The notes beneath the pieces are model-generated. The model worked only from the letters and a program-made list of their open reading frames with translations, made no database searches and was not told the origin of the DNA. The translations under genes were made by a program, and so were the position numbers. Shown in pieces: positions 19,019 to 59,947 of a stretch of DNA of 64,000 bases; the stretch's first letter is position 1; the number at the start of each line of letters is the position of its first letter. The stretch spans positions 173,730 to 237,729 of the forward strand of contig MKRX01000005.1 in assembly GCA_001898035.1 (NCBI GenBank), given 5' to 3'. The DNA comes from Armatimonadetes bacterium 55-13. Its GTDB lineage: Bacteria; Armatimonadota; Fimbriimonadia; Fimbriimonadales; Fimbriimonadaceae.

Positions 19019-21962
<2,944 letters not shown>

Positions 21963-21963
<1 letters not shown>

Positions 21964-22020
21964 TCGCAGTTTTACCGAGTGTTTGATGTATGTTTCTTTA
22001 AGCCACTGTGGAATTTTCTA
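21963..22020 (+). repeat. 3' arm of the 23S processing stem (inverted repeat)
   Basis: Complement of 18958-19015. It begins at CTCGCAG directly after the mature 23S end and runs to about GGAATTTTC. Confidence 0.85.
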
Positions 22021-22045
22021 AGCGCTCTGCGCTCGAACAGTTTCT

Positions 22046-22165
22046 ATTCGGGTGGCCATAGCGAGAAGGAAACACCCGTTCCCATTCCGAACACGGCAGT
22101 TAAGCTTCTCAGCGGCGGAAGTACTTGGAGGGCAGCCTCCCGGGAGATAAGCGCGTTGCCCGGAT
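22046..22165 (+). rRNA. 5S ribosomal RNA
   Basis: About 119 nt. The terminal helix pairs TTCGGGT with GCCCGGA. The loop A-B region is CCATAGCGAGAAGG, followed by CCCGTTCCCATTCCGAACACG (loop C) and the loop E region with AGTACTTGGAGGG. It lies 80 bp after the 23S in the same transcript. Confidence 0.95.
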
Positions 22166-55541: not shown

Positions 55542-56006
55542 ATGGCGAACGAGATTTTAGTCACGGTTGATGGTCTTGCGAAGCTGAAAGCGGAGTTGGA
55601 AGACCTAAAGGGCCCTACGCGAGCACGAATCGCGGAGGCGATTAGGGAAGCAAAGTCCCACGGCGATCTTCGAGAGAACGCGGCTTATCATGAAGCAAAG
55701 CTCAACCAAACCCGTCTGGAAGCCCGGATTGCTGAACTAGAAAAGGCGATTCAGCGTGCGAAGATTGTGGAACGTCGAGACGATGGCGGCGCTCATCTAA
55801 ACTCGAAAGTTCAATTGCTTGATCTGGAGTTCGACGATGAGTTCACCGTCACTCTGGTTGGCGCTTTCGAAGGGGACCCGAGCAACGACCTCATCTCAAT
55901 TTCCGCGCCCCTTGGCGAAGCCCTGGTGGGCAAAGTGGCGGGAGATGAGGTGGACGTGGTTTCACCCAATGGAACCAATCGTTATCGAATCGTCTCAGTA
56001 GAGTAA
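55542..56006 (+). CDS. greA: Transcript cleavage factor GreA
   Basis: 154 aa, normal length. The N-terminal coiled coil has KLKAELEDLKGPTRARIAEA and GDLRENAAYHEAKL, including the acidic D/E residues at the tip that reach the RNA polymerase active site. The C-terminal FKBP-like domain ends with PNGTNRYRIVSVE. It rescues backtracked RNA polymerase. The gene at 56011 follows after 4 bp. Confidence 0.95.
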   Translation: MANEILVTVDGLAKLKAELEDLKGPTRARIAEAIREAKSHGDLRENAAYHEAKLNQTRLEARIAELEKAIQRAKIVERRDDGGAHLNSKVQLLDLEFDDEFTVTLVGAFEGDPSNDLISISAPLGEALVGKVAGDEVDVVSPNGTNRYRIVSVE

Positions 56007-56010
56007 TCGC

Positions 56011-56682
56011 ATGCGAGCGTTGGCCTTGGTTCTATGTTATCTGGCCGCAGTTGGTTGCGGCGCCCCCAAGCCCGCAGTGGTTGACGGTGGCGTACCCATT
56101 CAGAGCCAACCCAAAACCAAAGTGAGCGCACCCGCAAAAGTTCCTGCTCCAGACTTTACCAAGCGGACACGGCTGCGACTGGTGCGGCGAGGCGAGGAAC
56201 TTAGGGTCGGAGACTCGGTCGATGACGCGCTCCGAGTCTTTAAAGAGGAGAAAAACGCCTATAAGCTGACGGACATGCCCCCAGGTTGGCAGGACGAGTC
56301 GTACAAGTGCTCGGGATGGGAGACGGGTGGTCAGGGTTTTGGCGTTATTTCGACCCAAGAAAAGGTCGTCTTGGCCATGTACCACGAGGAGCAAGTCGAC
56401 GAAGACCGGTTGAAGGAGATTCTTGACACCTACGACGACAATCTGCAGTTGGCCTCCACGGCGGTCACAGGAAGCCGTGTTCGATATTGGATCTGGGAAG
56501 ACGATCCGCACCGCCTCATGATTTGCGCTGTCCAAATTCCTTCCGAGGGGCTCAACGTCACGGTTAGCCTGGGAGATAGCCGGTTTATGGACATGCTGAG
56601 AATGAGCCGTCCGGCGGCAGAGAAGGATGAAGAAACGGCCGAGGCTCTCTTCAAAGAAGGCCTGAAGGCCAAACAGCGCTAG
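56011..56682 (+). CDS. Hypothetical lipoprotein
   Basis: 223 aa. MRALALVLCYLAAVGCG is a lipoprotein signal with lipobox AAVGC (Cys16). A Pro/Lys-rich linker precedes a globular domain (RTRLRLVRRGEELRVGDSVD, DALRVFKEEKNAYKLTD, GVISTQEKVVLAMYHEEQVD), whose start resembles small proteins that read a parameter at a fixed position, but no family is recognised. It is 4 bp downstream of greA and probably co-transcribed. Confidence 0.65.
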   Translation: MRALALVLCYLAAVGCGAPKPAVVDGGVPIQSQPKTKVSAPAKVPAPDFTKRTRLRLVRRGEELRVGDSVDDALRVFKEEKNAYKLTDMPPGWQDESYKCSGWETGGQGFGVISTQEKVVLAMYHEEQVDEDRLKEILDTYDDNLQLASTAVTGSRVRYWIWEDDPHRLMICAVQIPSEGLNVTVSLGDSRFMDMLRMSRPAAEKDEETAEALFKEGLKAKQR

Positions 56683-56764
56683 AACCCGCAATTTCTACGC
56701 ATCGAATCCCGAATAGTCAACGTATAGTAAGTTAATCTTGCAAACGGGAGGTGGTGTAAAGCAA

Positions 56765-56806
56765 ATGTATTCTGAACGTAAACACCAGGGAGGTTGTGGG
56801 TTTTAG
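56765..56806 (+). CDS. Possible 13-codon leader peptide inside the RNA
   Basis: MYSERKHQGGCGF with stop TAG. GGGAGG and GGTGGTG lie 8-13 nt upstream of the ATG. The 3' half of the codons (CAGGGAGGTTGTGGG) forms the 5' strand of the main helix, so translation would melt it. This could be coincidence. Confidence 0.25.
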   Translation: MYSERKHQGGCGF

Positions 56807-56864
56807 CTAACCTGCAACATGCGACCCAAGGGTTGGTCATGAACCGCAATCCCCTGGGACGATA

Positions 56865-56904
56865 GAAGACCCGCTCTTGGCTCAGCCAGGGCGGGTCTTC
56901 TTTT
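56865..56904 (+). terminator. Intrinsic terminator before kdsB
   Basis: GAAGACCCGC (56865-56874) pairs with GCGGGTCTTC (56891-56900), followed by TTTT. The kdsB -10 box begins 3 nt after the T-run. Confidence 0.85.
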
Positions 56905-56906
56905 GG

Positions 56907-56912
56907 TAGCAT
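56907..56912 (+). promoter_or_regulatory. -10 box of leaderless kdsB
   Basis: GGTAGCAT, with TAGCAT ending 7 nt before ATG 56920, the same box and spacing as at ridA. Confidence 0.65.
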
Positions 56913-56919
56913 CCTCCTC

Positions 56920-57651
56920 ATGCGAAGCGTCGTTGTCATTCCGGCCCGAATGGCCAGTTCCCGATTTCCGGGTAAGCCCCTTTGTGATTTGGCGGGCAAG
57001 CCAATGATCCAATGGGTATATGAGGCGGCGATCAAATCTCAAGTTTCCGATGAGGTCGTCATTGCAACTCCTGATCAAGAGATTCTTGATGCCGCGAAGG
57101 CGTTTGGCGCGCCTGCAATTCGGACAAGCATTCAGCATCCTTCGGGAACGGACAGGATAGCCGAGGTTGCCCAGTCGATCAAAGCTGAATACTATGTCAA
57201 CGTTCAAGGTGACGAGCCCCTGATCCTGCCAGAAAACATTGCGGCGTGCGCCGCGCCTCTTGGAGAGAGTGATGAAATCCTCATGGGAAGCCTTTACACA
57301 GAATGCGCCGATGATGAGATCGAAAACCCTGCGGTTGTGAAGGTTGTGGTGGCCCAGAATGGCAATGCACTTTACTTCAGCCGCTGCCCGATCCCATATC
57401 CCCGTAATCCGCGGCTAGGAGCGGTAAACAAGCATGTTGGCTTGTACGCTTATCGACGCGATGTCCTGGAGCGATACGCCACGTGGCGACAGACGCCGTT
57501 AGAGTCAACTGAAAGCCTTGAACAACTCCGATTTCTTGAAAACGGTGTTCCCATCCGCATGTCGAAGGGAAAACCAAGCCTTCTTGCCGTCGACACTCCC
57601 GAGCAAGCGGAAGAGGTGCGCCGAATCATCCTATCTGGTGGCTATGCCTAA
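56920..57651 (+). CDS. kdsB: 3-deoxy-manno-octulosonate cytidylyltransferase (CMP-KDO synthetase)
   Basis: 243 aa. VVIPARMASSRFPGKPL binds CTP. VIATPDQEI, HPSGTDRIAE, NVQGDEPLI and NKHVGLYAYRRDVL are the other family blocks. It activates KDO as CMP-KDO for the inner core of lipopolysaccharide, which suggests this organism makes LPS or another KDO-bearing glycan. Leaderless-type start. Other kds/lpx genes are outside the window. Confidence 0.93.
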   Translation: MRSVVVIPARMASSRFPGKPLCDLAGKPMIQWVYEAAIKSQVSDEVVIATPDQEILDAAKAFGAPAIRTSIQHPSGTDRIAEVAQSIKAEYYVNVQGDEPLILPENIAACAAPLGESDEILMGSLYTECADDEIENPAVVKVVVAQNGNALYFSRCPIPYPRNPRLGAVNKHVGLYAYRRDVLERYATWRQTPLESTESLEQLRFLENGVPIRMSKGKPSLLAVDTPEQAEEVRRIILSGGYA

Positions 57652-57721
57652 GCTATACTTAGGGTCAAGAACACGCGTTTTATCAAGCAGTGCCGCTTGA
57701 GACGATCATTTTTGCGGTCCC

Positions 57722-59947
57722 ATGGGAGCGGCCTACGACATTAGTCATAACTGGGAAGAGCCGGATGGCCTTCATGAACTACTTGAAACCGTTCGTCGTG
57801 AACGAGACGACGCTGACATCAAGAAGATTCGATACGCCTACTTCATCGCGGAGAAGGCGCATTCTGGGCAGTCTCGCTCTAGCGGTGAACCCTACATTCT
57901 CCACCCGCTAGCCGTCGCCAAAACACTTGCCGATCTCCATATGGATGACGACACGATCAGTGCGGGACTCCTGCACGATGTCGTTGAAGATTGTCCCGAA
58001 TTCACGCTAGAAGACATTACTCGGATATTTGGCGAGGATGTAGCAAACCTCGTGGAGGGAGTGACCAAGCTCAGCTTTAAACCGGTCTCGGACATGACCG
58101 AGCGCCAAAAGGCAGTCGCCGAAACCACGAGAGCGGCAGAGAGTCTGAGAAAGATGCTGCTAGCCATGGCCAGCGACTTCAGAGTCATGGTGATTAAGCT
58201 GGCCGACCGACTGCACAACATGCAGACGTTGGATCACTTGGCACCCGCAAAAAGGACTCGAATCGCCAATGAGACGCTCGACGTCTACGCACCCCTTGCC
58301 GCTCGCCTCGGTATTTGGCAGATCAAGTGGCAGCTAGAAGATCTCGCCTTCAAAAATCTTCATCCTGAGGAGTTCCAATCGGTATCGGAAATGGTCGCCA
58401 AAACGCGAACTCAAAGGGAAGAGGAACTTCGCGAGGCCATTCTTCAACTTAAGAACGCCGCCGAACGCAAGGGACTTAAGGTGCTCGACATCCGTGGACG
58501 ACCCAAGCATCTCTACTCCATCTTCAATAAGATGGTGAAGCAGAAGCTCAAGTTCGACGAAATTTACGATCTGCTTGCCCTCCGCATTATTGTGGAGGAA
58601 TCATCGGATTGCTATGTCGCCCTCGGAATCGTTCACGACCTCTGGGTACCCGTTGTTGGTCTGTTCTACGACTATATCGCTAAACCCAAGCCCAACGGCT
58701 ACCAATCGCTTCACACCAAGGTCATCGGCCCACACGGTGCACCGCTTGAAGTCCAGATTCGCACGATGTCGATGCATGAAGTTGCTGAATTCGGCGTGGC
58801 CGCCCACTGGACTTACAAAGAAGGGAAAGCTTCTCTCGACGAGACGAAACGCCTTCGGAATCTTCGTGAGCAGCTATTCGACTGGTCAAGCGACGCCCGT
58901 ACCTCCAGCGATTTCTTGCGATCTCTTTCTACGGACCTGTTCTCGGAACAGGTCTTTGTTTTTACTCCTAAAGGCGATGTTATCGACTTGCCAAAGGACT
59001 CAACTCCCGTCGATTTCGCGTTCCGTGTCCATACCCAACTCGGCATGACCCTTATCGGCGCTAAAGTAAATGGGTCGTTGGTTCCTCTGAACACTCGTCT
59101 CAAGAACGGCGACGTGATTGAACTCATCACTCGGTCGAATGCCCAACCCAGCTTGGATTGGCTAGAGTTTGTTCAGTCCGCCCATACTCGAAACAAGCTT
59201 AGAAGCCATTTCCGCAAGATCAGCAAAACCGACGATGCCGCAAGGGGGCGCGATATGCTGGACAAAGAGCTGAAATCGATCGGGCTCGACCCCAGGCAGT
59301 TCCTAGGCGACGAGAAGTTGAGTACGGTCGCAAAGCAGTTGGAAGGCTGCGAAACTTCCACAGACGTCCTCGCCCGTGTTGGCCTTGGCCTAACATCGGT
59401 TCAGGGCGTTATATCGAAGCTTCGCGGGCAGGTCCACGAGCATCCAAGCGCGGATCGCATCGAGGTCGCTCGTACCAAGGAAGGGAAGGTAACCCTCGTC
59501 ACAAGTGGCATTGACCACGTGATGGTCAACAGAGCCAAGTGTTGTAGCCCAATCCCCGGGGATGAAGTCGTCGGCTATGTGACCCGGGGAAGGGGAATCA
59601 TGCTCCATCGAAAGGTCTGTCCAAACGCGATGAGCTACATGACTCACGAACCGGAGAGACTTCTCGCCTACGATTGGCCGTCCGATGGCAGTGTCTATGC
59701 CGTCGGTCTCAAAGTCATTTCCGTGAACCGCCAAGGCCTCCTCGCCGACGTCAGCACCATTTTTAGTGAGCTCAAGATCAACGTATCGGCGGCAAAGATC
59801 AAGACCTTGCCCAACCACACCGCCGAAATCGACGTGACCATCGAAGTCCCAGATACCAAGATGCTTCAACTGGTCATGACCAAGATTAGCAACTTCTCGG
59901 ACGTTATCTCCATCCTCCGCCTCTTCGGGCGAACCGCATCTCGATAG
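57722..59947 (+). CDS. rel: Bifunctional (p)ppGpp synthetase/hydrolase (Rel/SpoT)
   Basis: 741 aa. HD hydrolase domain with HSGQSRSSGEPYILHPL and LLHDVVED (His85-Asp90). Synthetase domain with RGRPKHLYSIFNKM, YDLLALRIIV and KPNGYQSLHTKV. TGS domain from VFVFTPKGDVIDLPKDSTPV, in part, then a zinc-finger-like helical region (RAKCCSPIPGDEVVGYVTRG) and a C-terminal ACT domain. It makes and degrades the stringent-response alarmone. A ~60-nt leader follows TATACT (57654-57659) and contains a small hairpin TCAAGC/GCTTGA, so this gene is not leaderless. No clear Shine-Dalgarno site. Confidence 0.95.
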   Translation: MGAAYDISHNWEEPDGLHELLETVRRERDDADIKKIRYAYFIAEKAHSGQSRSSGEPYILHPLAVAKTLADLHMDDDTISAGLLHDVVEDCPEFTLEDITRIFGEDVANLVEGVTKLSFKPVSDMTERQKAVAETTRAAESLRKMLLAMASDFRVMVIKLADRLHNMQTLDHLAPAKRTRIANETLDVYAPLAARLGIWQIKWQLEDLAFKNLHPEEFQSVSEMVAKTRTQREEELREAILQLKNAAERKGLKVLDIRGRPKHLYSIFNKMVKQKLKFDEIYDLLALRIIVEESSDCYVALGIVHDLWVPVVGLFYDYIAKPKPNGYQSLHTKVIGPHGAPLEVQIRTMSMHEVAEFGVAAHWTYKEGKASLDETKRLRNLREQLFDWSSDARTSSDFLRSLSTDLFSEQVFVFTPKGDVIDLPKDSTPVDFAFRVHTQLGMTLIGAKVNGSLVPLNTRLKNGDVIELITRSNAQPSLDWLEFVQSAHTRNKLRSHFRKISKTDDAARGRDMLDKELKSIGLDPRQFLGDEKLSTVAKQLEGCETSTDVLARVGLGLTSVQGVISKLRGQVHEHPSADRIEVARTKEGKVTLVTSGIDHVMVNRAKCCSPIPGDEVVGYVTRGRGIMLHRKVCPNAMSYMTHEPERLLAYDWPSDGSVYAVGLKVISVNRQGLLADVSTIFSELKINVSAAKIKTLPNHTAEIDVTIEVPDTKMLQLVMTKISNFSDVISILRLFGRTASR

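Follow-up and report, generated by a model that had tools for sequence, protein, structure and literature searches.

A free-standing structured RNA conserved across Armatimonadota, with a micro-ORF: possibly a translation-operated switch or a trans-acting RNA

Between a lipoprotein-like gene and kdsB, the genome of Armatimonadetes bacterium 55-13 carries a single-copy structured RNA element (56699-56904; all coordinates refer to the window, the whole 64,000-nucleotide stretch of DNA that was analysed). Judged by sequence comparison, this element is old, free-standing and conserved across Armatimonadota. The first-pass annotation had proposed a new structured RNA upstream of kdsB, and this is confirmed: the element lies far beyond chance because it has homologues in many genera and its helices carry compensatory changes. 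The plus-strand fold of the 237-nt intergenic gap (56683-56919) had z = -4.2 against dinucleotide shuffles, with 0 of 200 shuffles equally good, while the reverse-strand fold was weaker (z = -2.5). We infer that the RNA is a translation-operated switch or a trans-acting RNA. Whether it is, across Armatimonadota, a stand-alone RNA gene that works as a switch set by translation, presumably acting in trans, is in our judgment an even call.

The gene order over 55542-59947 is greA, the lipoprotein-like gene, the RNA, kdsB and relA/spoT, which places the RNA between transcription-elongation and stringent-response genes. The features of the locus are as follows.

55542-56006: greA, directly before the lipoprotein-like gene
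56011-56682: lipoprotein-like gene without a known family, upstream flank of the gap
56699-56724, plus strand: predicted promoter, with -35-like GCATC (56699-56703), a 17-nt spacer and -10-like CGTA (56721-56724), from the motif of relatives
56746-56756, plus strand: SD1, a strong Shine-Dalgarno sequence, GGGAGGTGGTG, of which GGAGGUG is invariant in alignment A1 and nearly so phylum-wide
56753-56786, plus strand: P1 hairpin, GGUGU (56753-56757) with ACACC (56782-56786), start codon in the loop, from sequence
56765-56806, plus strand: uORF of 13 codons, MYSERKHQGGCGF*, its stop UAG within the core motif
56785-56857, plus strand: rod fold, with outer helix 56785-56790/56852-56857 continued in this genome by 56792-56799/56844-56851
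56788-56793, plus strand: internal SD-like GGGAGG in the ORF, 5' of the stop codon, from sequence
56793-56818, plus strand: alternative hairpin HP1 around the stop codon, 56793-56802/56809-56818, 10 pairs
56799-56845, plus strand: core motif, GGUUUUAGC (56799-56807) and GGUCAUGAACC (56835-56845)
56830-56845, plus strand: HP2, GGUU (56831-56834) with AACC (56842-56845), available once HP1 forms
56865-56904, plus strand: predicted intrinsic terminator, stem 56865-56900 followed by TTTT, hairpin of -28 kcal/mol
56907-56922, plus strand: leaderless-looking kdsB start, with -10-like TAGCAT (56907-56912) seven bases before the ATG at 56920, not part of the RNA
56920-57651: kdsB, downstream flank of the gap

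The 14-position helix, the near-identical 11-nt repeats GGGAGGTGGTG and GGGAGGTTGTG (the latter SD-like, at 56788-56798), the 13-codon ORF and the terminator all lie where the first-pass annotation had placed them, and the length it proposed, ~170 nt, fits the predicted ends of the RNA, the 5' end probably falling near 56730-56733. The core motif consists of a stem, a UA/CAU internal loop and P3 (56806-56812/56831-56837). Conserved parts are the promoter, the strong Shine-Dalgarno sequence GGAGGUGG, an AUG in a hairpin loop, an ORF of 10-14 codons and the core stem GGUUUUAGC...GNNAUGAAC, joined in the window's family by the closing helix and the terminator.

Homologues are widespread. A DNA search of 60 relatives returned low-E-value matches in many genera of the window's family, often away from kdsB, and a covariance model built from seven of these matches (R1) found the RNA in 50 of 85 genomes and 23 of 32 genera of that family, at one copy per genome, weak secondary matches aside. 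Model R2 (46 sequences) extended it to other families of the window's order and to many families of the phylum, one match (G206) being due to chance. The phylum-wide covariance search that had been suggested was carried out with model R3 (63 sequences) on 205 Armatimonadota genomes at least 90% complete; it located the RNA in 101 of them, representing 61 of 123 genera, and essentially in single copy; a few of the weakest matches (E 0.004-0.009) could be spurious. No match turned up in about half of the genomes searched, among them some from the window's own family. Scanning 84,980 species for the pattern yielded 42 stretches, nearly all bearing names of Armatimonadota, Chthonomonas calidirosea among them; the two that came from other phyla (Psittacicella, WOR-3) were without the AUGAA half of the core.

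The reading frame is kept with great regularity. All 48 sequences from the window's family contain a frame ending in -F*, opened by ATG in 47 (in L098 the best candidate start is TTG). In 47 of 47 members, 36, 39 or 42 nt separate the stop from the first ATG downstream of the SD, and the SD-to-ATG spacing varies by single bases from 15 to 19. No in-frame stop interrupts the ORF in the family (0/47) or outside the order (0/29). Outside the order the ORF has 10-13 codons, mostly M-x-x-S-Q-R-G-D-x-x-G, and its stop codon (UAG, UAA or UGA) shifts in position: in 27 of 29 sequences it ends 0-5 nt ahead of the core, and in two of 29 it overlaps the core's first base. A test for selection on the encoded peptide showed no synonymous excess in either set (23 and 14 pairs, small samples): 20 of 153 changed codons were synonymous in the window's family (0.131 vs 0.148 expected) and 10 of 56 outside the order (0.179 vs 0.204 expected). 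With samples of this size, weak selection on the peptide may still be at work. The sequences are most simply read as being under selection for translation up to a fixed place, and not for the peptide. Since the frame is kept without detectable peptide conservation, the conserved trait would be a terminating ribosome brought to the foot of the core stem. At the site homologous to the internal GGGAGG most relatives have (G)GAGG, and such an SD-like sequence a few bases 5' of the stop could detain a ribosome there. Frameshifting or bypass at GGGUUUUAG to the downstream AUGAAC was considered and rejected: the frame after AUGAAC is unconserved, and in the window the +1 frame stops immediately.

Two folds compete for the segments around the stop codon. 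The rod pairs the ORF's 3' end with the AAC(C) that follows AUGA and the post-stop segment with GGGUU, and the outer helix encloses both. In the HP1/HP2 fold, the partner of the ORF's 3' end is the segment right after the stop (HP1), and GGGUU pairs with AACC (HP2); HP1 and the core stem are mutually exclusive. The minimum free energy fold of the window's copy contains 56785-56790/56852-56857 and 56792-56799/56844-56851, 14 pairs in all. The first-pass annotation had staked its proposal on this helix (56785-56799/56844-56857), which proved conserved in relatives with compensatory change: the rod helix is 97.8% paired in 46 sequences, with double changes at 6 of 8 pairs. HP1 has five distal pairs, all double-changed and with up to 5 standard pair types, and HP2 is 79.5% paired with double changes at 3 of 5 pairs. 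In alignment A4, which was fitted to the HP1/HP2 model and so leans toward that fold and not the rod, 51 double-change cells supported the rod (13.9 in shuffles) and 89 supported HP1/HP2 (26.5 in shuffles), both above every slid version. In the swap test, an alignment-free exchange of helix partners between genomes, the outer helix scored z -12.5 within the window's family, HP1 -9.1, the two rod helices -5.6 and -3.4, and HP2 -3.0; coevolution of the P1 hairpin was weak in the family (z -1.6) and reached z -3.4 outside it. The structural alignments were fitted to models of the tested folds, shuffle controls and swap tests ignore relatedness, and, as HP1 and the rod share similar segments (GGGUU twice, AACC twice), some of the support for either fold might derive from the other. 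Because the rod and HP1/HP2 both covary, we take them to be alternative states. In 39 of 46 sequences the rod has the lower energy, and the rod and HP1 energies are at most 5 kcal/mol apart in 34 of 46.

The idea of competing elements thus survives in altered form. The alternative folds covary, whereas the two SD-like repeats find no support in the role of competitors for one strand in which they had been cast, SD1 and the 3' strand showing no coevolution in the swap test (z = -1.3). The competing segments that matter, more so than these repeats, are the 3' end of the ORF, the post-stop segment, GGGUU (56830-56834) and AACC (56842-56845). GUUUUA and AUGAA of the core are invariant in alignment A1 and conserved across the phylum, and the core stem covaries strongly outside the window's family and order (z -9.7), with several standard pair types at most positions. 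Outside the order, nearly invariant UUUUAGCC and GGNNAUGAA flank a UA/NAU internal loop, and the equivalent of HP1 (z -1.8) and the outer helix (z -1.2) were below significance in the swap test. The apical part of the RNA ranges from a UUCG loop to long insertions. Exclusive, phylogenetically supported hairpins beside a short ORF, as expected of an attenuator-type device, are found in the window's family; beyond the order, such support extends to the core stem alone.

A putative promoter had been proposed upstream of the RNA. A candidate does lie there, but it is probably GCATC-N17-CGTA, with an ECF-sigma-like spacing kept in relatives, rather than a sigma70 site. At the same place relatives have GAAAC/GCAAC/GAACC-N17-CGT(C/T/A), and we take the spacing and sequence of GAAAC-N17-CGT to be those of ECF-sigma promoters. 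The strict form occurs in 24 of 48 upstream regions of the family vs 1.4 in shuffles; the window's own copy is a weak match to the family motif, and TATAGT overlaps it. When nine genomes were searched for the motif at other loci, few further sites and no obvious sigma gene turned up; the ECF label is therefore presumptive. Many copies outside the order have a TTGACA-like and GATAAT-like pair instead (by eye). Many family members (L054-L102) have an extra hairpin between promoter and SD, ~15-60 nt upstream of the latter (for example GCGGCT...AGCCGCG before UACUUUUCACC); the window's lineage seems to be without it, and its promoter is nearer the SD. At the other end, a simple rule found a terminator-like site in 40 of 48 family members vs 25 of 193 control positions, and in 13 of 29 sequences outside.

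The genes next to the RNA vary. The RNA persists at loci without kdsB, and the downstream gene is co-directional at 34 and convergent at 40 of 74 loci (simple longest-ORF rule), as would suit the free-standing RNA that the first-pass annotation had offered as one option. Its other option, an abandoned attenuator of kdsB, finds no support: kdsB adjoins only part of the family (directly downstream in ~14 of 50 members, and also in G038) and appears by eye to have its own -10 box after the terminator. That kdsB has a leaderless promoter, as had been noted, does appear to be so: TAGCAT precedes the ATG by seven bases and most kdsB-adjacent relatives have TANNNT 6-8 nt before the start codon (by eye). 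The link to kdsB is incidental and concerns only some family members. In most window-family genomes checked, the RNA follows greA closely on the same strand; in G234, G242, G243 and G225 (two other families) it sits 240-450 nt before greA, and in the remaining genomes it is unlinked to greA.

That no known RNA core is recognised, as had been noted from the sequence, agrees with Rfam 15: no family reached the gathering threshold on the element, and a permissive threshold gave only chance-level matches in the window. In 16 members of the phylum searched at E<=0.5, only a tRNA and c-di-GMP-I riboswitches were found, outside the RNA. Two tandem c-di-GMP-I riboswitch matches, the second below the gathering score, lie near the RNA in G242 on the opposite strand (L127, 3137-3534). 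The window also holds 23S and 5S rRNA genes (19019-22164) and no 16S gene, which may therefore be unlinked. In the open-access literature searched, no report of the RNA was found.

Several other explanations have to be weighed. A divergent known housekeeping RNA, either 6S RNA or tmRNA, would be phylum-wide, single-copy, about 170 nt long and rod-like, and in length and rod-like fold our RNA does resemble 6S RNA (RF00013). This identity is nevertheless largely refuted and can be given hardly any weight. In addition to the missing Rfam match, RF00013 has no match in G000, and 6S RNA is encoded at separate loci in G037 (C2:173121-173297) and G038 (C3:103638-103811), members of other families of the window's order; a conserved SD and ORF would be out of place in 6S RNA, which is without a ribosome-binding site. 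tmRNA (RF00023) lies elsewhere in 18 of 20 genomes over the cut-off, and no tRNA-like part is seen in the RNA. 6S RNA was not detected with RF00013 in 13 window-family genomes searched, and in this family it is either lost or too divergent for that model. Only slightly less improbable is a cis-acting leader, attenuator or riboswitch, for the gene that follows (kdsB here and greA in some other families). It would fit the ~14 family members and G038 with kdsB directly downstream and the four genomes with greA at 240-450 nt, but a terminator stands between the RNA and the next gene, kdsB has an apparent leaderless promoter of its own, the genes downstream are varied with no consistent co-direction, and sequence conservation at the 40 convergent loci points against a general role as a leader.

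The RNA might also serve as the mRNA of a working micropeptide (12-14 aa with the ending GF* in the window's family, SQRGDxxG* elsewhere), with a structure that only tunes translation. An open frame and strong SD everywhere, and the recognisable motifs QGGxGF* and SQRGD, speak for such a peptide; we still hold it improbable, given that differences are spread evenly over the three codon positions, synonymous changes are unenriched, residues 2-7 vary freely, those residues that are conserved fall where the RNA is paired or SD-like, and conservation is higher in the RNA core past the ORF than in the peptide. Less easily dismissed, although unlikely, is an ordinary trans-acting (dual-function) sRNA that pairs with mRNAs, for instance via the C-rich CUCCCUGG strand, and in which the ORF is secondary. 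The RNA is free-standing with its own predicted promoter and terminator, its C-rich strand can pair with SD sequences, and the ECF-like promoter in the family suggests stress control. A seed would be fixed, however, whereas the C-rich strand covaries with its partner, and the invariant parts are instead the SD and the core.

In a switch set by translation, the transcript would present a very strong ribosome-binding site and an ORF of 10-14 codons whose amino-acid sequence seems immaterial and whose frame and stop position matter. Translation of the ORF would bring a ribosome to termination at the base of the core stem GGUUUUAGC...GNNAUGAAC, where it would cover the 5' half of the core. With no ribosome there, the RNA would settle in the core/rod fold or pass through the alternative hairpin that embeds the stop. 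The strong SD, the frame maintained regardless of its product and the stop at the stem foot together suggest that the core stem is opened or closed by a terminating ribosome. The presumed action in trans might proceed via the freed C-rich 3' strand or via a protein that reads the core. More speculatively, and with a probability that we would put well short of even, this may be a new housekeeping RNA of Armatimonadota: a translation sensor standing on its own, whose conserved core is kept open by a ribosome that completes a dispensable micro-ORF, letting the RNA report the cell's initiation or termination capacity to a trans partner, possibly in a transcription-elongation/GreA circuit.

Parts of this scheme have parallels. 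SgrS, RNAIII and Spot 42 are dual-function sRNAs with small ORFs. The Armatimonadota RNA gene is likewise both structured and putatively translated, but its ORF is shorter than most of theirs, and translation, not the peptide, appears to be selected. Sinorhizobium rnTrpL/peTrpL is an attenuator leader RNA released as a trans-acting sRNA, with a leader peptide (PMC7298713). The two share a short transcript (predicted here) in which alternative hairpins and a terminator come after a leader ORF; in contrast to rnTrpL, no regulatory codons are seen in the Armatimonadota RNA, there is no fixed downstream operon, the peptide is unconserved, and the RNA is a stand-alone gene across the phylum. GraL is an sRNA from the E. 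coli greA leader (PMC6829880), and the likeness is one of genomic position, as the Armatimonadota RNA recurrently adjoins greA. Unlike GraL, it lies downstream of greA in the window's family, upstream or unlinked in others, and carries a conserved ORF.

The RNA family appears to be undescribed, and it is conserved over an entire, poorly studied phylum. Its signature is unusual: a frame kept for translation, not for its product, in a predicted transcript that leads no gene. If the proposed mechanism is true, it would set "translation as a sensor" apart from attenuation, which as a rule goes with an operon downstream.
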